DNA from: Chthoniobacterales bacterium
Lineage (GTDB): Bacteria; Verrucomicrobiota; Verrucomicrobiia; Chthoniobacterales; UBA10450
NCBI GenBank assembly: GCA_003244145.1
Contig: QHBM01000013.1
Location: 1-64,000 of the forward strand
Length of the DNA stretch: 64,000 bases
Reading direction: 5' to 3'
Below the pieces are notes generated by a model. It had not been told where the DNA came from, searched no databases, and was given only the letters and a program-made list of their open reading frames with translations. A program made the translations under genes and the position numbers. Every line of letters starts with the position of its first letter. Within the stretch, counting starts at the first letter, position 1. Positions 20,091 through 53,327 of this stretch are shown here, in pieces.

Positions 20091-23000
20091 TTACTTCAAG
20101 TTATAGATCTCGACCAAGGCGACACCGCTGGCGCCGTTCTTGTCGACCAGGATCGCGGTGAATTGTCCCGGCGGCGCGAGCGCCGTGAAGATGCCCGATT
20201 CTTTCGGATTCGATAGCGCCAAGCCAGCGGCCGTCAGGTTCGCTGCCGCCACCGGATCGTCGGTCCAATTGTCGTTCGAGATCATGATCGTTCCGTTGGC
20301 GTTGTGCAGTTCCAGGGTAGGATCGGGCATGACGTTGTTTATCCCGAATTGAGTTAGCGAAGGTCCGAGGCCGCGCACTGCGATCCGGGTGGGGTTGGGA
20401 TTTCCACCCAGGGTAAAGCCGCCGATCATGACGTTGAGGCCGGTCTGGACAAAGCCGCGGGTGCTGATGTTAGCCAACTGCGAGTCGCTCGCCTGATTGT
20501 TGTCGTAGACTTCCACCAGGCCGATACCGGTGTCCGCGACTCCACCAGTCACTGCGCCGGTCAGGATCGCGGTGTAATTTCCGGGCGAGAGCGTGGCTAG
20601 GATGACTGATTCGCGATTGTCGGTCGGCTGGAAGATGGTGCCTTGGATCTGCGGTGCTTGCGGGCTGTTGATCCAGTCGTCGTTCGAGGTGATCAAAGCG
20701 CCATTAGGCCCGTGCAACTCCAGGAACGGATTGTGGAGGACGGCGGCATCTGGCACCCCGTTGTTGACCAGCGATGGTCCCATCCCGCGCAGGACGACTG
20801 CCTTGGGGCTGTTCCCGGTGATGATGAAGCCGCCGATCATGACTTTCTCCCCGGTATCCACCCGCAGCCGGGTGGAGATGTTCAAGGCCTGGGCCGGAGT
20901 CGGCGTAGGTGTGGCCGTTGGGCTAGGTGTAGGGCTCGGACTTGGGCTAGGTGTCGGCGTAGGCGTGGGAGTAGGTGTCGGCGTAGGTGTCGGGGTAGGG
21001 GTCGGCGTAGGCGCGTTGACTATTTGACCACCCGCGAGTGAGCCACTGCTGCCATTGAAGTTAGTGTCCGCCGTGTAGGTCGCGGTAACGGAGTGCGGAC
21101 TGCCGGCTACCGTAAGGCTAGAAGTGCTGGTCTGGGCCTGGCCGCCACTTAAAGTTACAGGAATCGCGGCCCCGCCATCGATGGCGAAGTTAACGGTGCC
21201 GGTGGGAGTTCCCGCACCCGGCGATACTGCGGCGACCGTGGCCGTGAAGGTCACGTTCTGCCCGCTCGCCGATGGGTTAGCTGATGAGGTGACGCTCGTA
21301 GTGGTATTGGCTTTGTTGACCGTCTGAGAGACGCTCGCATTGCTCGTAGTGTAGTTGCTGTCTCCCGAGTAGGTGGCTTTGATCGTATGCGCTGCGCTGA
21401 CACTTAGCGTTGAAATGCTGAACTGAGCCTGGTTGCTACTCAAGGTAACAGGGCTACCGGCGTTGACGCCGTCCACCTGGAACTGGACCATTCCAGTCCG
21501 CGTCGTCGTAGCGGGTGCATTGGCCGCCACGGTGGCCGTGAAGGTGACGCTCTCGCCAAAGACGGTTGGACTCTTCGACGTGGTGAGAGTCGTGGTCGTG
21601 GTGCCTTGCGCTATTGTGACCGATTCCTGGGCCACGCCGCAGGCGCCGGTTACACTGTTGTTATTGGCATCGCCGCTGTAAGTAGCAATCCAGTTGTAGG
21701 TCCCGGCTGCGGTCGGCGAAAAGCTGCCCGAGCCGTAGTTGTTGGCGTTGCCGTTGACCGGGATGGCCGCCGAGGTAAAGACCGCTGTGCCGGCGCAGGT
21801 GGCGTCGTTCGGTCCATAGAGCTTGAAGGTGATCGAGCCTGTCGGGCTAGCCCCGTTGGCGATGCTCGCCACATCGAAGACAGAGCTTCCAAGAGGTCCG
21901 TTCCCGGAAGCTGCCGTGGCTAGGTTGGGAGTTACCTTGGCTACTATCACCGATTCGTTCGCGTCGTTGCACGCTCCGGCTACGCCGTTGTTGTTCGCGT
22001 CCCCGACGTAGGTGGCAATCCAGTGATAAGTCCCGGCTGCTGCCGGCGTGAAATTGCCCGAACCATAAATGTTCGTGCCCGCCGTGACCGCGAAGGGCCC
22101 TGCCGTAAAGATCGCCGCGTTGCCGCAACTATTATCGTTTGGCCCATAAAGCTTGAACGTAATCGTCCCAGTATGGTTGAACCCGCCGCTCAGGGTCGCG
22201 CTGTCGGAGACCGTGCCGCCCACGGGAACCGTGCCCGAAGCGGTGGTCGCCAGACCCGGTGTAGCTTTACTCACGATGACCGACTCGTTGGGTGCGTTGC
22301 AGGCCGTCGTCACGGAAACATTATTAGCGTCGCCGCTATAGCTCGCTTTCCAGTAATAGGTCCCCGGCGCGGTTGCCTGGTAATTACCGGAAGAATAAGG
22401 CCCGGGTCCATTGACCGCGAAGGGCCCCGCAGTAAAGACCAGGTTGCCAGCGCCGCAGGCATTGTCGTTTTTGTAAAGCGTAAACGTGATCGTCCCCGTC
22501 ACGTTGTATCCGCCAGAGATGGTGGCGCTGTCGGAAACGTTGTTCCCCACGGTCGTGGCCGCGGAAGCCGTGGTGGTAACCGTCGGTGTAGCCTGGCTGA
22601 CTACGGTGTTTTCGTTCGCATCATTACAAACTGTCGCTATCGCCGCGTTATTGGGGTCACCGCTGTAGCTCGCGGTCCAGCGGTAGGTGCCAGGCGCGGT
22701 CGGAGTGAAGTTACCTGAGGTGGCGGTGTTACCGCCCGTGAGCGGAACCGTCGAAGTAAAGATCGCCGCGGCGACGCAGGTGTTATCCGCCGGTGCGTAA
22801 ACATTAAACGTCACAGTGCCGGTGGCATTGACTCCGCCACTAAGCGTCGCGGTATCGGTGACAACTGTTCCCACCGTCGTGGCGGCTGTGGAAACCTGGG
22901 TCACCATCCCGGTCGTCGCCGTATTATTCGTGAGCGTGAAGTCGGCGGAACTGTAGCCGGTCGCGCTGGCAAAGACGTGGTAGGTGCCGGCGGTGTTGTT

Positions 23001-26000
23001 GGCGGTGTTGTTGGCGGTAAAGGCCGGCGCCGTGACAATTCCGGACGCATCGCTTAATTGCGCATTGCTTACATTCGTGCCCGTATCGGCAAAGGTGCCG
23101 CTCGCTCCGCTGGCGGGTGCGGTGAAGGTAACCGAAACGCCGCTGATCACGTTTCCAGACTCCGACACGGTGGCTTTCAGTGCCGTCGTAAAATTGGTGC
23201 CGACCGCCGCGCTCTGCGGCGTCCCAGCGGTAGTGGTAATGATGTAGTTCGCCTCGATCGCGCCGATGTCGACTGTCGTGTTAACCACGCGCGCGAAGCC
23301 GACACCGCGTTGATCGACCGGCAGCGGCTCCGCTACGTCCGCATCGTTATCCAGGTCAAAGGTGTCGGCAGGTAACAGAGCATTGCTGCCGTTGTTAATG
23401 GCCGCGCTGCCAAGGGCAGGAAGGTGCGTTTGCGTAGGTCCGCCGTTGTTACCCAAAGCTCCGAGCTGCGGATTCACGTTCAATTGATTGTTGCCGCCGG
23501 TAACGTTCGCACCGGTGATATCGCCGATCAGGCTGAAGTCGGCGTTGACCGAGCCGGCGATGTCATGCGGCGTGGTGGTCGGGCTCCCACCTTTAAAGTT
23601 ACCAGAGACGATCGTGTTCTTCAGGGTAACCGTTCCGCTAAAGGCTCGGATACCTCCCCCGTCCCCAGTAGCATCGTTGTTATTGTCCGAGCGATTGTCG
23701 GATACGGTCACATTCGTCAGCGTCACTGTCGCGTTCGCAGCGGAAGCACTGTTCGTGTTGTAGAGACCGCCGCCATCCCCATTGCTGGTGTTCCCGCTGA
23801 TCGTGGTATCGACGATGTTCGCCGTCGCGACCCCAGAGTTAGCCGAGCCAACGTTGAGAATCCCGCCACCGGCTCCGGCAGAAATGTTCCCGCTAATGGT
23901 GCTAGTCAGGACGTTCAACGTGGCGGTCCCGTAATCGCCATAGTTGTAAATCCCGCCACCGTTTCCGTTCGCGCGGTTACCGCTGAAGGTGCAGTATTTG
24001 ACCGTCGCCGTCGCCGTGCCGCTCAGGTAGCCGCTGTTGAAGATGCCGCCTCCGCCGTCACCAGCAGCGTTACCGCTGAAGACGCAACTGGTGACGGTCA
24101 AGATGCCATGGTCATTAAAGATGCCGCCACCTTCATTGGCTGGGAACACGCCGCTGGCGCTGCCGTTGGCGATGGTGAGGCCAGAAATGTTTGCCGTCGT
24201 TCCGGGCGTGATCTCAAATACGCGGCTGGCATTGTTGCCACTAACCGTAACGACTGAGCCGCCCGGCCCTGTGATCGTCACGTTCTTGTTAATCAATAGC
24301 TCCGCCGACGTGAGCGTGATCGTACCGGTAAGCCCGGCTTGGAAATTAATCGTACCACCTGCGCAAACATCGAGCAGTGCCTGACGCAACGATCCCGCGT
24401 TCGCGTCATTCAGGTTCGTGACCGTGGCTGGATTGGCACAGAGCAGGGTGATGGTCGGGTCGGCCTTGCCACCCACGTTCGGATCATCGGTAAGAACGTC
24501 GGCGGCGAGATTGGTCCCTTTGACCGTTCCCTGGTTGGAGATCTGGGTTGTGTTTGCCGGCACCAGCGGATTCTCGACCTGGACCGAGAAGGTAACGACA
24601 ACCGTCTTCCCGGGTGGAATGTCGCCGATGTTCACGGCCGAACCTGAGTTGAGGTATTGAATCTTCGGATGATCGCTTGCCATGGCCCCTAAGGCATCGC
24701 CCGCCGCAGGAACGCGACGCTCACCCGTCGTCAGGTATCCATACATGACCTTGTCGCGGTCCTTGGCGTCATAAGCATCAGGCAGACCAAGGGCGTGACC
24801 CATCTCGTGCATGATCGCCGTGAGCAGGTCGACGCGACCGGCCGGCGCGCCGGCTGGATTGGTATAGCTGCGAGTAGCTGAGACAGACTTACCAAATCGC
24901 GAGTTATCGGCAGCGGTAGAACTAATGAACCAGCCATTGCCGCCGGCATTCCGGCTGACGCGAATGTGGTTGCCGGCAGTTTCGCCAAGTTTGAGACTTG
25001 GCAGATCGGCTACTTCAAAGCTTAGCCCGCGCAAGGTGGCGATCTGTGCGTTTGTTAATCCTGTAGCTGACCAACGTTCAACTGCAGCAGCGACCGTTGA
25101 GTCGAGTTGCTGTTGGTCGAGCGCGCTGGTGATACCCGAAAACTGACCAGATACGCCGCCAGGAGCGAGCAGTAGTGGGCAGCCCCCGCTGTTGCTGAAT
25201 GCCGGCGAGGTGTTACCGGCGATGACGAGCTGCTTTGCGGATGCTGCATTCTGAGGGGGTGGACCAACGTGATTTGAAACGCCAGGGTTCTGCCCCCGGA
25301 TGTAGTCGGCAACATTGCCGACGGTGTTGGCCGGTCCGGTGGTACTGTCCACAACGCCTGACGGGTCGTCGGCATAATCCGTTGCCGGAGTGAACCCAAC
25401 TATGGCGAACGAGCCGGAGGCCGTGGTTTGCGAGAACACGCGAATGGAACTTTGATGGCTCGTGCCGAGACTCCATGTTCCGGTGATGGTGTTGCCAGAA
25501 ATTTCCAGGCATGTATCCGTCGAGTCGGCCTGAGTACTAGTTCCTGACTCAATTGCGATAGCCGGATTAGCCGCGCCGGCGTTCTGATCCGGGTTGGTGA
25601 TCGTGTTGCCTTTAACAATCCAGGACACAATACTGCTATCGGGCGCGCCCCCGGAAATGATCACTATGCCCGAACCCTCGGGGTCGTGAATCGTGTTGCC
25701 CTGAATCGTCAGCTTGTGCGTGCCGGCGGAGTTATTGGTGATATCAATGCCGTCGCAGCCGGCGATCTGACAAGTCGAATTCGCATTGCCGGCCGTTCCG
25801 GTCGTGTTGTTTTCAATCAGGCCGGTCCATGTCCCCGAGGCGGTAGACCTGTTAACACCGATCTGGTTCGTGGCGCCGGCGTCCGGGTTTACGCCTACCG
25901 TGATGTTCGTGGTGTTATTGCGGACCTTGTAGGTCATGCCACCGGTGTTCGCCCCGGTGATGGAGATGGCTTGGTTACTGTTGGTGATGGTGTTGCCGTT

Positions 26001-29000
26001 GCCCGCGCCGGTGGCCGGTCCAATGTTGGCGATCATGCTGCTCGAGTTGGCCATATCAAGGCGGATGCCCTGAGCGTAGATCCGGTCGACCGTGCAGTTC
26101 GTGATCGTCGGACTCATCGTGGCGGCGTTGTGCGTCGCCAGGAAGAGACCGGAGTTGGCGGTGGTGTTGGAGGGTGTGCTGGCAGTGACGGGGAAGGTCG
26201 TGTTACTGAACGTCGCCGAGTCAACGTTCACCGTCAAAGCGCCGCTGCCGTTCTGCACCTCGAACTGGTCAGAGGCGTTGTCCTTGTAGAGGCCGCCGGA
26301 CACGGTCAGCGTGCCGGTGAGATTCGCGATCTGGACGCCGTCTTCGCCGACCTCGTTGCCGTTGCCGGTAGCGGTCACGTTCGTGAGCGTCAGGTTCGAG
26401 CCGCCGTTTACATCGATGCCGATCTGTTTGCTCCCCGTGGCGGTAACGTTATTGAGCGTTGCAGTTGTGACGGTCAGAAGGCTGATATTGGAGTTGCAGT
26501 TCGTCGGACCGTTCGTGCCGTTGAGCGCGTCACCGCACGTCGTCGCAGCGCCTAGATTGGCCGTTGCGTTGTTCGTGAAGTTCATGTTCTTGAGCGTAAC
26601 GTTGCTCGCACTACGGAAGTCCGCGCCCTTCGCCGAACAATTTTGAATCGTGCCGCCGCTACCAGCAGTCGTCCCCGTGCCGGTAACGCTGAAGGCACCA
26701 GAACCGGTGACGTTGAGCAACATACCGTTAGTCGTGCCGTTGACGTTGATTTTTTGGAAGGTCACGCCGCTGCCGCCTATTGTGGTGTTATCAATGTTCA
26801 CCGCGGCGGCCGACAAAGCAGTCGTTCCGCCGATGGTGTTACCACTGTTTGTAACGTTGACGGTGCCTCCACCGGTGGCAGTGAAGGCTGTGGTGCCGCC
26901 GGTATTCAGGGTCAAAGCTCCGGTCAAGTTGATCGTGCCGCCGCTGTTAGTGGTAAGTGATATCCCACCGTTAGAATTGGTAACCGATCCGGCATAGGTA
27001 ATTGTCGCCGTTGAGCCGCTCACATTGACGGCTGCCGCTGTCGCCCCCGAGGAAGCTCCCGCATTCATCGCCAGGGAGCCGCTCACGTTAGTAAGGAGAA
27101 TGTTATTGACCCCGCCGGTAGAGGAAACGCTATCGAACACCATCGCGACTGGTTGGCGGTTAGTGGTGTTGTTGAACCCGGTAATCTCCACGGCGCTGGC
27201 GGCAAGGGCACTGATGGTGCCGCTGGTCGACGTAACCGTTCCCGGAACCCCGGCAACAGTATTGGAAATTACAAGGGCTTTTTGCCCGCTGTCGGGCGAG
27301 ATATCGAGGTCGGCGAAGGTCACAGCCCCTGCGTTATTAATCAGAGAGACACCTACCCCGCCACTGCCGGTGACGTTTACATTGGCAAAGCTGATGCCGT
27401 TGCTCGCCGCGGCGACGTTAACGAGGATACCGGTCGAACCGCTGTTGTTAATAGTCGTCTGTCCAGTCACCACGGTCCTGCCGCCGCCCCCGACGCCGCC
27501 ATGGGTTAAGCCCTGGCCCCCGCTCTCGCTGATCGTCAACGTCCCGAAAGTAAAGGTATGCGCGCCAGCTGTAACATTCGCCTCCAGCCGCAGGCCCTCC
27601 TGGCCGCCGCCGCCGCCGCTGTTTGCGACGCCCACAGTTCCGATGGTGGTATTGCCGAAGCTCACGTCCACGTCTGAAGCGGTGACGAAGATGCCTTGGA
27701 TGGCAGAGTTGTTGATCGTGGTGCTGCCAAAGGAAACCGTCCCGTGAATGGTATCCAGCTTGAGGCCATGCTGGCCGGCGGCAGTGCTGGTAGATGCCAC
27801 CGAAACAAAGCCGCTGGCGGCCGCGAAGGTTCCATTCACTAGATCCAGCGCCTTGCCCGAGCCGCTCACCTGCACGTCAGGCGACGTGCTGTCGCCGATT
27901 AGAACCGTGCCGAAGGCGGTTCCAATAATCTTGGCCGCAGTCGTGTTGGCCACGTTAAGTCCGCGGATGGTGTTGCCAGTGCCCAAAGTGATGCCGCCGG
28001 TGACGATCGTTGGCCGTGCGGCGGTGTTCATCGCCGGTGGCGCGCCGCTGTCCGCTGGGAAGGTCAGTCCGGTGATATTCGTTGGATTGCTGTTGGCACT
28101 ATCATTAGCCAATGCGCTGGACGCGCCCTGCCCGATCAGTTTCTCGCTCGTCTTCAAAGTAACCGGGCCGGTGTAGTTGGTGGCGGAGCTGTAGAGGAAA
28201 ATATTGTCGCTCGCCGCATCCACACTGGTGACGGCGGCCAGGGTCTTGAACGGGCTGCCGAATCGCCCGTCGCCATTCGACGCTACGCTTGTATCGATAA
28301 ACCAGATACGGCCGGCGCCGATTGGGATCGTGACTGTGGCTTGCGCCGAGCCGAAGCCATTGCTGACACTGTAAACGATGGTGCCGTTGCTGTTGGCCGC
28401 GGCCGCAGTGGCTGGGTTGAAGGTGAACTTGCCGTTGCTCGAAATGGCGCCGTTCCCATTGGTGGCGCTGACAAATGCCGCCGTAATCTGGTCGCCCGTG
28501 TCATTACTCAACACGCTGAACTGCGAGGAGACTGAGGTATCGATGCCTACGTTGCGAATGAGCGTCGTCGGATAAGTCTCGTTATTCGCCCCTGGACGCA
28601 CACCGACTGCGAGAGAGACTGTCGCGGTGCTGCTGGCAGTCGTATTCGTGATCGTGTATTTAAATGAGTCGAGTCCGGTAAACGTGGCGGACGGCGGCGT
28701 GTAGTTGAAAGAGCCGTTGGCCAATACCTTCACGGTCCCACCGGCTGCGCTCGCTCCGTTAGTGTTACTCGCAACCGTTGTCTCAAGTCCCGTAGAAGGT
28801 CCGAAGCTCGATACCGTCGCAGCCGGTTGACCCGGCGTATCGTTGGCCAGGAGGTTCGGGCTGCTACCGCTTGCAATGGAAGTATTGATGGCGATGTGAT
28901 ACGGAATCGAGCCCGGCGAACTGTTGGATGGGATGCCGCCGGTCGGATCGTTCGCCGCGGTCGGACCTTCGTTGACGGTGAGAGTGAAGGACTGTTGCGC

Positions 29001-29783
29001 ATTCGGCGCGACCCCGTTGCTGGCGGTAAACGTGAGAGGATAGACGCCGCCCTGTCCGACTGCCGGAGTGCCAGAAAGCGTCGCGGTCCCGTCGTTGTTA
29101 TAGACGAAGTTCACGCCGGTAGGCAGGGTTCCCGTCTTGGTAATCGACGTCACGGTCGGGGTGCCGGAGGTGGTGATGTTGAAGGGTGTCGCGAGGACGT
29201 TCGCGGTGAACGTGACGTTGTCCGCGCTCGTGAAGGCCGGCGGCGCCTGCACGTCTAGGGTCACGATCGCGGTGTCGTTAGGCAGTTGGGTGTTGGTTAC
29301 CGTGTAAGTGAACGTGTCCGTGCCGGTAAAGTTGTTGGGCGGATTGTAATCGAAACTGCCGTTTGCGTTCAGCGTGACCGTGCCGCCCTGACTGGTCGCC
29401 CCACCTGCAATCGGAACGGCGGTTGGCGTAGGAACTCCCTTGTCATTAGCCAAAACGCCCGTCGCGCTGATCTGTAGCAAAGTATTCTTGACCGCGTTGT
29501 AGGCGTCGGGAAAGGCGAGAGGCGAGACCTTGTATGACCCCACGTCGGCTGTGTGCGCTGGCGCGGCATCGGTGAGTGAGACGGCCGTGGCGGTCTCCAC
29601 TCCACTGGTGTTCGTGATCGTGACTTTGTAATCGATCTGTCCGCCCGGCTGGGTGGACCCGCCGGGACCGCTCGCCGTCGTCGCTTCCTTCGTCGCCGTG
29701 ACCGTTGGCGCGGCGATCGCGAAAGACGGCATCACCATTACGCCGAGCAACGCAAGGGCGGTCAGTTGAGCTTTGATTTTCAA
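20091..29783 (-). CDS. giant secreted Ig-like repeat/adhesin-type protein (3230 aa) with right-handed beta-helix-like region and embedded zincin motif
   Basis: Signal peptide [24 protein letters not shown]; many Ig-like, cadherin-like and N/G/T-rich repeat segments; '[15 protein letters not shown]'; PT/PS linker; two C-terminal NISTR…GGF repeats. Single uninterrupted ORF of 9.7 kb. Confidence 0.9.
20893..21018 (-). repeat. (Pro-Thr)n/(Pro-Ser)n linker-encoding low-complexity tract within the giant ORF
   Basis: Encodes [37 protein letters not shown]; hexamer-like gtaggc/gtcggc repeats on + strand. Confidence 0.9.
21600..22900 (-). repeat. tandem ~110-aa Ig-like repeats (four copies) in the giant ORF
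   Basis: Copies carry 'D(S/T)A(T)…SGG…TGT(I/V)TF…Y…DN.C…TAPGTY.W.A.YSGD.NN…C' at ~330-nt spacing; boundaries approximate. Confidence 0.8.
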
Positions 29784-48428: not shown

Positions 48429-51400
48429 TCACGGATGCTTTCTCCCTTCGCTCGAAAGCGCCTCCGCGTGAGGACTCCGAAGCGTAACTGTCATCCAAAG
48501 GCCTAGAAGCAGCGCCCCAACTCCCGCCATAACTAACGAAGCGGTGAAATGTTTCGGCCAGTAGGAATAGGAAATCACGTACTTGCCAGCCGCCGGAAGG
48601 TTGACTCCGCGAAAAGCATGGTTAACTCGAAAGTAATTGGCGGGAGCTCCGTTGATCCGCACGATGAAGTCCCCGGGAACGTAGGCTTCAGTGAGAACCG
48701 CCGCACCGGGTGCGGGCGCGTCAATTGTGAAAGTGGTGGTGTTGTTGGTCAAGTGGTAATCGTAAGCAGGTGTGATTGGTGCGGCGGCTATGGTATTTGC
48801 ATTGTCTGAGGCGAAAACGTCGGGCGGCACGCCGATTCCTTCTGCATTCTGAACGGCGGCGAACGGATGTGAATCGGCTTGGCGCAGCATGTCCAGAAAT
48901 TGCTCGACGGGGTCGTAGCGCCGAATCTTTTCGGCAAAGAAGGCCCGGGGCCACATGCCTTCATTCTTGGAAACGTCCAAATCCAGGGGCGGCCCATTGC
49001 CCGAAGCGGCGGGCGACCTAATGTTCTCCGGCATATCCAGAAAAAAACGAAGGTTGAGCATACTATAGAGCGGCAAATTTGCCTTCAGGGTCGAACGTTC
49101 GACGATCCACCGCCAATTCCATTCCTGCTTGACCCCACCTGAAGCCAGCAACTCATGATAGTAGGGATTGGCGAGGGGATCCGGGCCATAAATGGTTTCC
49201 ACTCCCGGAATGCCATTGACCCCGGGAAACAGGACATTGCCGAAGCCGACGGTGCGAAAGACGCCGGGCTGACTCGCAATGGAGTCAAGCGCAGTGGAAT
49301 GCGCGCTGAGGTCGAGCCGCGGCGCGGGATTAACGACGTAATCATCCAGCTGCGTTACCCCCGTATTTAGTTGGAAGCCATGCCTCCAGTGCAAACAAAC
49401 CAGGCACAAGAGGGCGAAGGGAACAGCCAGGAAAATGAAACGGGACCTTCGCATGATCGCTCTCACCAACCAGGGCAATGCCAGCAAGGCCGAGGCCACC
49501 GAAAAACTATAAAGGTAGAAAAAAGCATTACGCGAGTTTGCCTCACCGAGTGGAGCAAACTCGTTCGGAATTCGCTGCAAGGAATGAGTCAAGCCAAGGT
49601 AGGAACCGAACAGAGCAAATAGCGCCAGCGTGATCAAGACGAAATCCATTTTCCATCGTCTGCGGGCCCCGCGTTCGAGGAAACACCTGCAGCCAAATCC
49701 TGCCAGTACGAATAACTCGATCAGCAAAGGACACGAGAAGGTATTATCGATGTGCCAGATGTGGTTGATCATGGGGATTTTCTCGATCAGAGACGGCGGG
49801 ACAGCTCCGAAGATTAGGGCGAAGGACAAGAGCGCGCCCAGACTTATTCCTACAAACACTGGGTCCCGGAGCAGGCGTCTGAAATAGATTAGGGCAAGGA
49901 TAGTCCCGAGGAGAACCAGGAAGTTCACGGAAGGATTGTAAACCAAGCCCGCGGGATTAACCGCGCGATAAAAAATGTCGTCAAAGAAACCGATGAGAAG
50001 CCCCGGTTGAATTTGATAGGCCAGCGCGGCTTCCTTGTAAGGAACGTATGCTTTTTGCAGCGCTTCGAAAAACGTGAGCCACACCGGAGCGGCCAGGAGC
50101 AGAAAGACGGCGCCTACGATGCCGAGGTTGATCAACTTTCTGGTTCGGTGAGCGGTCGGACTAAGAAGAAAGATGAGCAACCCACACCCATGCAGACTTA
50201 GCAGGAGCATGTAAGCCTCCTTGACGGTGCCACTATTCAACTCCGCCCAGGTGGCCAGCAGCAGTCCTGCTATCCAGCGAGCGCCGGCGCGCGCCGTGGG
50301 CGCTCGCGTGATCTCAATCCAACACAGGAGCAACCACGGCGCGTAACAGACGCTGAAGAAGGCCGGATGATTAAATCGATAGGAGAAGAAGCCGATAAAG
50401 GCCGAAGAGAAGGCGAAGAGTAGCGCGGTGGGCAAGTGCCTGGAGGAGGTATGAACGGCAAGACCCAGCCCAAAACAAAAGAGGATCTTGGCCAGCAGAA
50501 ACTTGATGTCCCACGACCAAGCCTCGCCGCCCCCGGCCAGCACCAGCATGTGCAAGGGGTCTCCGAACATGGACTGACCTTGCCCAAGTAGGGTCAGCCC
50601 GCAGGAATTGAACCGGTTCCAAAGCGGCAATTCGCCGTCCCGAGCCAAAGCCCGGCTTTGAATAAACGAATTCGGCACATCATGCCACATCATCGCGCCA
50701 GCATCCGAGCCCTTGAGGTTTTCCGATCGTCGATCGGAATGACCCGGCAGGGTAGGGGCGCCCGGATACAGCATCGGAGCGACGTTGCCCGAGACAAAGC
50801 TCCGGCCAAAGAACACGACGGGGTAACAACTGACCAGCACGCTGATCACCGCGATAACGAAAATCGCCCGGCGCGGATTGCGTTGGCTCCATGCCGTTAT
50901 TCTTTCCCACCGCGGCTGGGCTTTTTGCCAGAGTTGCGGCGCAAACCTCAGCCAGATGATCCCGGCCAAACTGACCGGCACAAAACAAAAGAGGAAAACC
51001 CGCAACCCATAGAGCCAAACGGCTGCAGGCGCGGCGCGGAGGGATAGAATCCTTCGTGGATCCAGGAGCAGGGTCGGGTCTTTTTCTCCAGGTCCCACGC
51101 TCAGCCTCGTTTCACTACCAGCCACTTCCAGCTGTGAAACCCCGGAACCGGCAATTATGTCGGTTGGCGAGAAACCCTTCACCGAGTGTCCGAACAAGTC
51201 GACGATCCGGACGTTTTGGATCGCAATCTCACAATTGCCGCCATCCGCCGGATGGAACTGGAGCGTTCGATATTCACCCTGGGAGAGGGGAAATCGGTAG
51301 ACGGTGCGAGGCGAACTCTGCAAGGCAAGCTGAGCAGAATCCCGCGCATTGATACCCGCGCCGATATCGTAGAAGACGCGAGCACTGCCGCCCCGCGACG

Positions 51401-51527
51401 AGGTCATTGAAATTTCGAGGTAAAACGGCGGCGTCAGGGGGCAGGCGATGAACGCCACGGCAGCCGCGAAAAAAGCCGCCAAAGCTAGCACCAGCCTGAT
51501 CTGCACGTTCGGAACGGAAAACTTCAT
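48429..51527 (-). CDS. YfhO-like large multi-pass membrane protein
   Basis: 1032 aa; N-terminal TM plus soluble region, ~12 hydrophobic segments, C-terminal 'VLTEAYVPGDFIVRINGAPANYFRVNHAFRGVNLPAAGKYVISYSYWPKHF'. Confidence 0.8.
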   Translation of the reverse strand: MKFSVPNVQIRLVLALAAFFAAAVAFIACPLTPPFYLEISMTSSRGGSARVFYDIGAGINARDSAQLALQSSPRTVYRFPLSQGEYRTLQFHPADGGNCEIAIQNVRIVDLFGHSVKGFSPTDIIAGSGVSQLEVAGSETRLSVGPGEKDPTLLLDPRRILSLRAAPAAVWLYGLRVFLFCFVPVSLAGIIWLRFAPQLWQKAQPRWERITAWSQRNPRRAIFVIAVISVLVSCYPVVFFGRSFVSGNVAPMLYPGAPTLPGHSDRRSENLKGSDAGAMMWHDVPNSFIQSRALARDGELPLWNRFNSCGLTLLGQGQSMFGDPLHMLVLAGGGEAWSWDIKFLLAKILFCFGLGLAVHTSSRHLPTALLFAFSSAFIGFFSYRFNHPAFFSVCYAPWLLLCWIEITRAPTARAGARWIAGLLLATWAELNSGTVKEAYMLLLSLHGCGLLIFLLSPTAHRTRKLINLGIVGAVFLLLAAPVWLTFFEALQKAYVPYKEAALAYQIQPGLLIGFFDDIFYRAVNPAGLVYNPSVNFLVLLGTILALIYFRRLLRDPVFVGISLGALLSFALIFGAVPPSLIEKIPMINHIWHIDNTFSCPLLIELFVLAGFGCRCFLERGARRRWKMDFVLITLALFALFGSYLGLTHSLQRIPNEFAPLGEANSRNAFFYLYSFSVASALLALPWLVRAIMRRSRFIFLAVPFALLCLVCLHWRHGFQLNTGVTQLDDYVVNPAPRLDLSAHSTALDSIASQPGVFRTVGFGNVLFPGVNGIPGVETIYGPDPLANPYYHELLASGGVKQEWNWRWIVERSTLKANLPLYSMLNLRFFLDMPENIRSPAASGNGPPLDLDVSKNEGMWPRAFFAEKIRRYDPVEQFLDMLRQADSHPFAAVQNAEGIGVPPDVFASDNANTIAAAPITPAYDYHLTNNTTTFTIDAPAPGAAVLTEAYVPGDFIVRINGAPANYFRVNHAFRGVNLPAAGKYVISYSYWPKHFTASLVMAGVGALLLGLWMTVTLRSPHAEALSSEGRKHP

Positions 51528-51716
51528 TGCTCTGGTCCCGCTTTAATCGTCTGGATTCGCCCGTCGTGTCACGAGAATACTTGTTGGCGAACGATGGAGG
51601 TCGCCGATGGAAACCTGGGTGCAGCACTCCTGCCAGATCAATTGACCATGAAATCTCTGGCTCACTTGCTCCGGTCTGCCGGAAGTGGGCGACGGTGAGT
51701 CGTAGCAGGCAAAAGG

Positions 51717-51872
51717 GTGGCCTTGGCTGCCCACCTTCCCAAGTATGGGCACGCCATGGTCATCGGGCTTGTAGAGACCGACTCGGAAGACAACCAATGG
51801 CGTCATACGGCGTACGACCAATTCATGAGACCCGACAGCGTGGAAGACTCCGTTTACGATGGCGGGCTGTGA
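51717..51872 (+). CDS. candidate antitoxin C-terminal region upstream of MazF-like gene
   Basis: Frame not in the ORF track: GTG 51717 reading MALAAHLPKYGHAMVIGLVETDSEDNQWRHTAYDQFMRPDSVEDSVYDGGL*, stop overlapping the next GTG by 4 nt (GTGA). An in-frame stop lies just upstream near 51696. Confidence 0.35.
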   Translation: MALAAHLPKYGHAMVIGLVETDSEDNQWRHTAYDQFMRPDSVEDSVYDGGL

Positions 51873-52174
51873 GTTTGGAAGACATTTTTCTCTGCCGATT
51901 TCCATTTACATCGGGCGAGTTCAGCAAACCCTGGCCTGTGCTCTTCGATTTAGAGCCAGAGGTCATGATCTGCCGGATCACGTCGATGCTGCGTTCCGAT
52001 CGGTTAGCAATAGCTATTCAGAAGTGGGAATCGGCTGGTTTGGCCAAACCCTCCGTGGTTAGATCGGATCGTCTCGTTACCGCGGAGAAAACTCTGCTCA
52101 CGAGGTATCTCCGTCGCTTGCACGTCACAGACAAAGCAGAAGTAAAGGCTGCGTGGAATCTTATGATTCTTTGA
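51869..52174 (+). CDS. MazF/PemK-like toxin family protein
   Basis: In-frame GTG of the 51527..52174 ORF: MSLEDIFLCRFPFTSGEFSKPWPVLFDLEPEVMICRITSMLRSDRLAIAIQKWESAGLAKPSVVRSDRLVTAEKTLLTRYLRRL; PemK-like 'FPFT…KPxPVL…CRITS…W..AGL..PSVVR…L.T..K' pattern. Confidence 0.6.
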   Translation: MSLEDIFLCRFPFTSGEFSKPWPVLFDLEPEVMICRITSMLRSDRLAIAIQKWESAGLAKPSVVRSDRLVTAEKTLLTRYLRRLHVTDKAEVKAAWNLMIL

Positions 52175-52361
52175 TCCGGACGGTGGCTCTCCCTCCCACA
52201 GCAGGCGGTTCGATTCCAACGCGGTGCAAAATCTCGCGGATCTGATCTGCACCTGTAGAGGAAGCTGTCAGCTTCCCGTCTGCCACGATCCAGCGCGCCA
52301 TAGACCCGGCTGTTAACGAGGCACGATCTTGTCCGCCAAAAGCATTCAAATAAAACGGCAT
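52161..52361 (-). CDS. small hypothetical protein (uncertain)
   Basis: MPFYLNAFGGQDRASLTAGSMARWIVADGKLTASSTGADQIREILHRVGIEPPAVGGRATVRIKES; protein-like composition only. Confidence 0.3.
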   Translation of the reverse strand: MPFYLNAFGGQDRASLTAGSMARWIVADGKLTASSTGADQIREILHRVGIEPPAVGGRATVRIKES

Positions 52362-52410
52362 GAATGCGATATGTTGACCTCGCGCACTCTGTATTGCACT
52401 GTCTTACATC

Positions 52411-52629
52411 ATGAGAGAGACGGTCACGATTAGCCTTCCAAAAGAAATGAGACGGCAATTGACAAAAGCTGCCAAAGCAGACGGAACAACGCAAAGCGAA
52501 TTTGTCCGGAGAGCGGTAAAAACACAGCTTTTCCGAAGCGCCCTCCGTGCGGCTTATGTTGACCTTGTCCCCAAAGCGCGCGCACTCGGCATCTACACCG
52601 ACGAAGACGTTTTCAAAAACGTCTCGTGA
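52411..52629 (+). CDS. ribbon-helix-helix (CopG/Arc-type) antitoxin
   Basis: MRETVTISLPKEMRRQLTKAAKADGTTQSEFVRRAVKTQLFRSAL…. Confidence 0.8.
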   Translation: MRETVTISLPKEMRRQLTKAAKADGTTQSEFVRRAVKTQLFRSALRAAYVDLVPKARALGIYTDEDVFKNVS

Positions 52630-53024
52630 GAGTCCTTTTTGACACGAACGTTCTGTTCGCTGCGTTCACAGTCAGGGGATTTTGCCAGGAGCTCGTCGAA
52701 GAAACGGTTGCCTTGGTGACCATCATTTGGTCGCCTGCATTGCAAAAGGAGCTTGTCGCCGCGCTTCGGAAAAAGGATCTGCTTTCCAAAGCCGCCCTCG
52801 CGGCGGCCGCTTCTTTCGCAGCCCTGTGCGAAATGCACCCTCCGGTTGTATTACCGAAACGAGTCTCACGAGACCGAGACGACGATATTGTCCTCGGTGT
52901 GGCCGTTGCCGGGCGAGCAAATGTTATCATTACCGGCGATAATGATCTGCTCGTTGTAAAAAAATACGAGCGAGTGCGGATTATGTCGCCTCGGCAATTT
53001 TTGGAACTTTTGCATTCGCAATAA
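52626..53024 (+). CDS. PIN-domain toxin (putative TA system toxin component)
   Basis: GTG start overlapping antitoxin stop by 4 nt; MRVLFDTNVLFAAFTVRGFCQELVEE…SRDRDDDIVLGVAVAGRANVIITGDNDLLVVKKYERVRIMSPRQFLELL. Confidence 0.88.
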   Translation: MRVLFDTNVLFAAFTVRGFCQELVEETVALVTIIWSPALQKELVAALRKKDLLSKAALAAAASFAALCEMHPPVVLPKRVSRDRDDDIVLGVAVAGRANVIITGDNDLLVVKKYERVRIMSPRQFLELLHSQ

Positions 53025-53044
53025 CCAGCGCGCGCTTTTTTCTG

Positions 53045-53327
53045 CGTTATCGCGATCGACCGGATGGAACTGAAGGGTGCGGTATTCGGCCTCCGGCAGA
53101 GGAAAGCGATACAGCGTCCTTGGCTCGGCTTGCAACGGGAGCTGGGTTGAATCGCGGCCGTTGATGCCCGCCCCGATATCGTAAAGGACGCCAGCGTTTC
53201 CACCCCGGGACGAGCTCATCGACACCTCGAGGTGAAACAACGGGCTGAGCGCGCAAGCGACAATCGCCACCGCGGCGGCGGAAAGCGCCGCCAGAGCAAG
53301 CGCCAACTGGATAATGTTTTTAGGCAT
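53045..53327 (-). pseudogene. N-terminal remnant of a second YfhO-like gene, truncated at the toxin-antitoxin module
   Basis: MPKNIIQLALALAALSAAAVAIVACALSPLFHLEVSMSSSRGGNAGVLYDIGAGINGRDSTQLPLQAEPRTLYRFPLPEAEYRTLQFHPVDRDN matches the N-terminus of the 51527 gene, then homology stops. Confidence 0.8.

Follow-up and report, generated by a model that had tools for sequence, protein, structure and literature searches.

A truncated gene beside toxin-antitoxin genes and a tRNA-Lys fragment in a polysaccharide locus of a Chthoniobacterales bacterium

Introduction

YfhO proteins (PF09586) are proposed GT-C glycosyltransferases (PMC5836110). Among type II toxin-antitoxin (TA) systems, VapBC-like pairs combine an RHH antitoxin with a PIN toxin (PF01402 plus PF13470/TIGR00305), and MazEF/PemIK pairs (PF02452) form another described kind. 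Integrative elements with tyrosine integrases give rise to islands at tRNA genes, and the passage of PMC8371274 that cites Williams 2002 describes three tRNA regions, including the T-arm and the 3′ end, that serve as att sites. ICEBs1, an element whose attB lies in a tRNA gene, is in addition able to integrate into protein-coding genes at secondary sites (PMC3715440).

Here, we analysed a stretch of 64,000 bases (hereafter the window, bases 1-64000 of the 95,709-base contig C112) from a 3.6-Mb metagenome-assembled genome (MAG) of a soil-type Verrucomicrobiota bacterium, and compared it with 213 genomes of the order and with the genus, represented by eight genomes including that of the window. 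An initial annotation had placed TA genes at the breakpoint of a destroyed YfhO-like paralog. To this picture our analysis adds a tRNA-Lys scar, the decay of a MazEF-like pair and a shared N-terminal module that could have headed more than one kind of lost gene. The parts of the locus are all of known kinds and its history is ordinary genome turnover, while the arrangement is new.

Results and discussion

The polysaccharide cluster at 42.5-51.5 kb was conserved and syntenic with G006 and G002, whereas the glycosyltransferase block at ~53.3-59.6 kb matched no DNA of the other seven genomes of the genus, so that the gene stump described below lies on the border between the conserved and the accessory part of the locus. 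Elsewhere in the window, the C-terminal ~265 residues of a 3230-aa ORF (20091-29783, minus strand) matched the C-terminus of ~1000-aa proteins whose genes adjoin YfhO-like genes in G002, G005 and G006.

At the edge of the conserved cluster lies an intact gene (48429..51527, minus strand) for a 1032-aa YfhO-like, GT-C-type membrane protein, whose named matches came from Verrucomicrobiota MAGs, mainly Opitutae. In a Foldseek search with its AlphaFold2 model (pLDDT 85.9), the body of the protein (residues 213-1032) had its best PDB matches in ArnT, OST/STT3, AftD and PglB, with a probability of 1.00 for ArnT, OST and AftD and ~0.99 for PglB and with low overall TM-scores of 0.23-0.35 of the query, which places the predicted membrane body in the GT-C fold superfamily and agrees with the proposal that YfhO is a GT-C glycosyltransferase (PMC5836110). 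The protein resembles YfhO (PF09586) in its predicted GT-C fold, its many transmembrane (TM) helices and its large extracellular part, but differs in having an extra N-terminal module absent from Pfam and no significant Pfam match, as PF09586 was not matched even at E ≤ 5 and the scores of its orthologs, 21.5-22.4 bits, stay below the cut-off of 28.5. Judged by sequence, 'YfhO' is thus a weak label for this protein.

On the far side of a gap, the first ~94 codons of a second gene headed by the same unnamed module were present as a stump (53049..53327, minus strand). The DNA at 53051-53305 matched 51239-51493 of the neighbouring gene without gaps and with 181 of 255 positions identical (71%, E=3e-33), bearing out the earlier description of a stub that matches the N-terminus of the 1032-aa protein. 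The complete stump ORF (52866-53327, minus strand) encodes 153 aa, among which residues ~7-95 matched the N-terminal module of the neighbour and the last ~58 are an antisense read-through of a PIN gene down to 52866. Between the last base of the PIN stop codon (53024) and the stump homology lie 26 bp, which confirms the reported proximity and corrects its distance of ~20 bp; this junction (53025..53050) contained no target-site duplication, and candidate borders showed no flanking direct repeats beyond 4-6 nt.

Both copies of the module bear the marks of protein-level selection. Differences between stump and neighbour fell on codon positions 1, 2 and 3 in the numbers 19, 11 and 44, and over 84 codons without a frameshift dN/dS was 0.11 at a dS of ~1.7, indicating that for most of their history selection acted on the protein products of both copies. 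The other copies of the module in the 213 genomes of the order always head long ORFs, one of at least 691 aa that is ended by a contig end and the rest of at least 833 aa, and stand-alone copies numbered zero, which leads us to reject a conserved short gene and shows the stump to be the 5′ end of a formerly longer gene. Searches with the stump protein against the contigs of named genomes gave no match. The upstream gene was functional and then lost its body. As blastx and blastn comparisons with YfhO, DUF7657 and other module-bearing proteins found no remnant of that body in 51528-53050, a deletion must have occurred as well, which separates replacement from mere insertion; the earlier proposal that TA cargo had been inserted in, or had replaced, a tandem YfhO gene holds for the presence of TA genes in the gap and for replacement with deletion, and is not supported as to simple insertion or, in the form given, the YfhO identity. 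That only a 5′ end is present and that no body remains in the gap would also be explained if the stump had never been a full gene but had arisen when the start of the YfhO-like gene (promoter plus half a module) was duplicated in tandem, the TA genes coming to lie against this partial copy later. Such an origin is very unlikely, since a non-functional copy would not carry the signs of long protein selection given above, and full-length neighbours exist in relatives.

What the lost gene encoded is less readily said. The N-terminal module spans ~185 residues and is predicted to consist of a TM helix, a beta-sandwich and a second TM helix, only the first half of which is kept in the stump. It lies at window ~50943-51494, corresponding to residues 12-195 of the 1032-aa protein, and occurs in relatives too; none of 16 members gave a credible Pfam match, and the module had no PDB sequence match and no significant fold match. 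In the order, the proteins it heads have YfhO-like bodies, DUF7657 bodies (G109, G094, G123) or membrane bodies of other kinds that belong to no family (G018, G094). Pairs of adjoining genes that both carry the module, as the earlier idea of two tandem genes implies, were found in relatives (G109, L035; G161, L116; EW11, L093). In G161 and EW11 both genes of the pair are YfhO-like. The pair in G109, by contrast, consists of one DUF7657 gene and one YfhO-like gene with unrelated bodies, whose modules are nevertheless mutual nearest relatives (54% identity, support 0.92), suggesting that the module may be swapped between adjacent non-homologous genes.

The stump had its nearest relative in the adjacent YfhO-like gene (69% aa identity), and it is possible, given the tandem pairs of G161 and EW11, that it headed a YfhO paralog. 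The module is shared by several kinds of body, though, and can be neighbour-like even where the bodies are unrelated, so likeness to the neighbour is insufficient, and 'YfhO paralog', as the destroyed gene had been called, cannot be concluded from the sequence. The same evidence bears on a history in which TA cargo interrupted or replaced one member of a tandem pair of YfhO paralogs, with no particular mobile element involved: tandem pairs and the closeness of stump and neighbour speak for it, the sharing of modules and the loss of all body sequence that could decide the matter speak against it, and the tRNA-Lys scar described below would go unexplained. We regard this history as unlikely, if deserving of some weight. 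Within the genus, an intact second gene beside the YfhO-like gene, which the paralog claim would lead one to look for in a form free of TA genes, was kept in no genome, and a DUF7657 gene was absent from all eight. The syntenic YfhO-like ortholog of G006 (L034, 7582-10170; 70% identical) has no N-terminal module, so species of the genus differ at the 5′ end of this gene. Where modules are shared in this way, N-terminal likeness to a neighbour cannot identify the remainder of a lost gene.

Three things now occupy the gap between neighbour and stump: a tRNA-Lys fragment, the decayed remains of a MazEF-like pair and an RHH-PIN cassette whose borders are defined. Directly beside the stump, a 72-aa RHH (CopG-like) antitoxin (52411..52629, plus strand; RHH_1 30.6 bits, cut-off 20.5) is followed, with a 4-bp overlap, by a 132-aa PIN-domain toxin (52626..53024, plus strand; PIN_3 47.6 bits, cut-off 27; TIGR00305 45.6 bits, cut-off 29.15), so that both domains of the previously reported pair scored above their cut-offs. 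In the toxin, the acidic residues D6, E42, D87, D105 and D107 were conserved. DNA homology to cassettes of other genomes of the family in unrelated contexts began at 52388-52400 and ended at the PIN stop codon, which fixes the borders of the cassette (52388..53024, plus strand). No intrinsic terminator match beyond chance followed the PIN gene. Throughout the order the two proteins recur together as a conserved pair. In gene order, in the 4-bp overlap and in its acidic residues, the pair resembles VapBC-like RHH-PIN systems, from which nothing notable in its sequence sets it apart, and it would be expected to work as type II TA systems ordinarily do, with the RHH antitoxin holding the PIN RNase.

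A second TA pair lies closer to the intact neighbour. Its MazF/PemK-like toxin gene (51869..52174, plus strand) scored marginally (23.4 bits against a cut-off of 23.1), with closest homologs at 46-59%. Like MazEF/PemIK toxins it lies downstream of, and overlaps, its antitoxin. The pair differs from them in that the antitoxin is a remnant of the C-terminal ~50 aa (51717..51872, plus strand) lacking its first ~24 residues and in that the toxin carries a Trp where the 'RPVLV' motif has its Arg, a residue common to nine of nine aligned homologs, and lacks two further residues. In MazF this Arg is catalytic, so that the pair is probably inactive. The initial annotation had recorded the MazF/PemK-like gene and overlooked both its decay and the antitoxin remnant.

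A MAG of 173 contigs (88% complete, 3.2% contamination) might join unrelated contigs into a chimera. We consider this highly improbable here, as the stump finds its closest relative 1.8 kb away, in the neighbouring gene, which means that the two sides of the TA block probably belong to one genome, and as the RHH-PIN cassette has relatives in the same family.

Between the two TA modules, also overlooked before, we found a tRNA-Lys(CTT) 3′-end fragment (52207..52233, plus strand), a candidate att scar. Positions 52207-52228 matched 22 of 22 nt of the 3′ end (part of the T-arm plus the acceptor strand) of the tRNA-Lys(CTT) of the genus, which establishes the tRNA identity of this segment, and a further 5 nt are common to G005. 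The 22-mer occurred exactly once in each of the eight genus genomes, within a full tRNA in seven and as an isolated fragment in the window genome, whose own tRNA-Lys starts at the extreme end of contig C140 and is assembled by half, with the 3′ end missing. The next-best site for the 22-mer in the window matched 16/22, and the window contained no complete tRNA gene.

Integrases of the order use tRNA-Lys as an integration site. Fragments of this tRNA lie beside PF00589 tyrosine integrases in G102, G074, G112 and one viral contig, and where both copies were present, the identical blocks of fragment and full tRNA fell into two classes of 26-29 and 42-48 bp, which fit the T-arm/3′-end and anticodon integrase sublocations as the passage cited above gives them (PMC8371274). 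The viral contig IMGVR_UViG_3300050821_020196 (L283/L284) contained a complete tRNA-Lys with the sequence found in the genus and a 42-nt 3′-end repeat adjoining an integrase. The tRNA-Lys gene adjoins nadE in G001, G002, G004 and G006; in the sister species G007 (contig C12, ~55-74 kb; L232, L256), a ~17-kb glycosyltransferase island fills its 3′ side and separates it from nadE. The closest parallel to the arrangement in the window is a locus of G095 (C60, 5450-8203; L236), in which a tRNA-Lys 3′ fragment lies between a UPF0175-PIN pair and an HTH-PIN pair. A second degenerate tRNA-Lys fragment lies 3.3 kb away from it. In G181, a sub-threshold PIN gene was seen beside a tRNA-Lys fragment.

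With tRNA-gene islands, as represented in PMC8371274 (citing Williams 2002), the window shares an exact 3′-end fragment of a tRNA that is so used in relatives; its scar, however, stands alone, with no integrase, and lies in a polysaccharide locus instead of at the tRNA gene. Illegitimate recombination, with no integrase taking part, might instead have captured the fragment and the RHH-PIN cassette jointly from sequence lying downstream of tRNA-Lys. Their common orientation, the island at tRNA-Lys in G007 and the PIN genes beside tRNA-Lys fragments in G095 and, below threshold, G181 speak for such a capture. Against it, the left break would need to have landed inside the T-arm by coincidence, a few bases from the start of one class of att blocks in relatives; we consider it unlikely.

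Taking these observations together, we favour a history, at a probability of roughly one half, in which a mosaic, the residue of a tRNA-Lys-type integrative element, came to stand in for the body of a destroyed GT-C-type gene. A GT-C-type gene headed by the unnamed module would once have lain directly upstream of the YfhO-like gene in the same orientation, like the abutting pairs in relatives. No more than its first ~94 codons would have survived, and a ~1.5-kb mosaic would have taken the place of the rest, made up of a MazEF-like pair, now decayed, an att-type scar from the tRNA-Lys(CTT) 3′ end and the RHH-PIN cassette, which is intact. The most likely agent would be an integrative element with the T-arm/acceptor end of tRNA-Lys as its attachment core, which, whole or as a fragment with its attP region, may have entered the variable polysaccharide locus at a secondary site and later eroded to its stabilising TA genes, the RHH-PIN pair alone still being intact. 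We infer that the three pieces arrived together on a single element, through this secondary site, much as the tRNA-attB element ICEBs1 enters protein-coding genes (PMC3715440), unlike which the present case would be read from a relic only. Against an element stand the lack of an integrase on contig C112, the four PF00589 genes of the genome all lying on other contigs, the recovery of a single att-like copy and hence of no attL/attR pair, in an assembly that cuts off the full tRNA-Lys gene, and the absence of an empty site in the genus. Since the scar lies between the modules and not at an edge, the pieces may also have arrived separately.

The locus thus documents a sequence of events, from functional gene through loss of its body to TA replacement, in a variable polysaccharide locus, and would tie the replacement to a specific attachment core, tRNA-Lys(CTT), an integration site across a poorly studied order of Verrucomicrobiota. 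Whether TA pairs on both sides of a tRNA-Lys core, as in the window and G095, are a recurrent minimal relic in the order, and whether, separately, GT-C modules are exchanged between adjacent non-homologous genes, are generalizations that we hold to be doubtful. If the TA-flanked relic is recurrent, such elements would retain a stabilising module on either side of attP, and after landing at a secondary site the modules would outlast the remainder of the element.

The region contained no credible RNA family. A minus-strand ORF at 52161-52361 belonged to no protein family and is read as noncoding spacer, and in the spacer between the two TA modules a short palindrome, AGGAAGCTGTCAGCTTCC, lies at 52257-52277.
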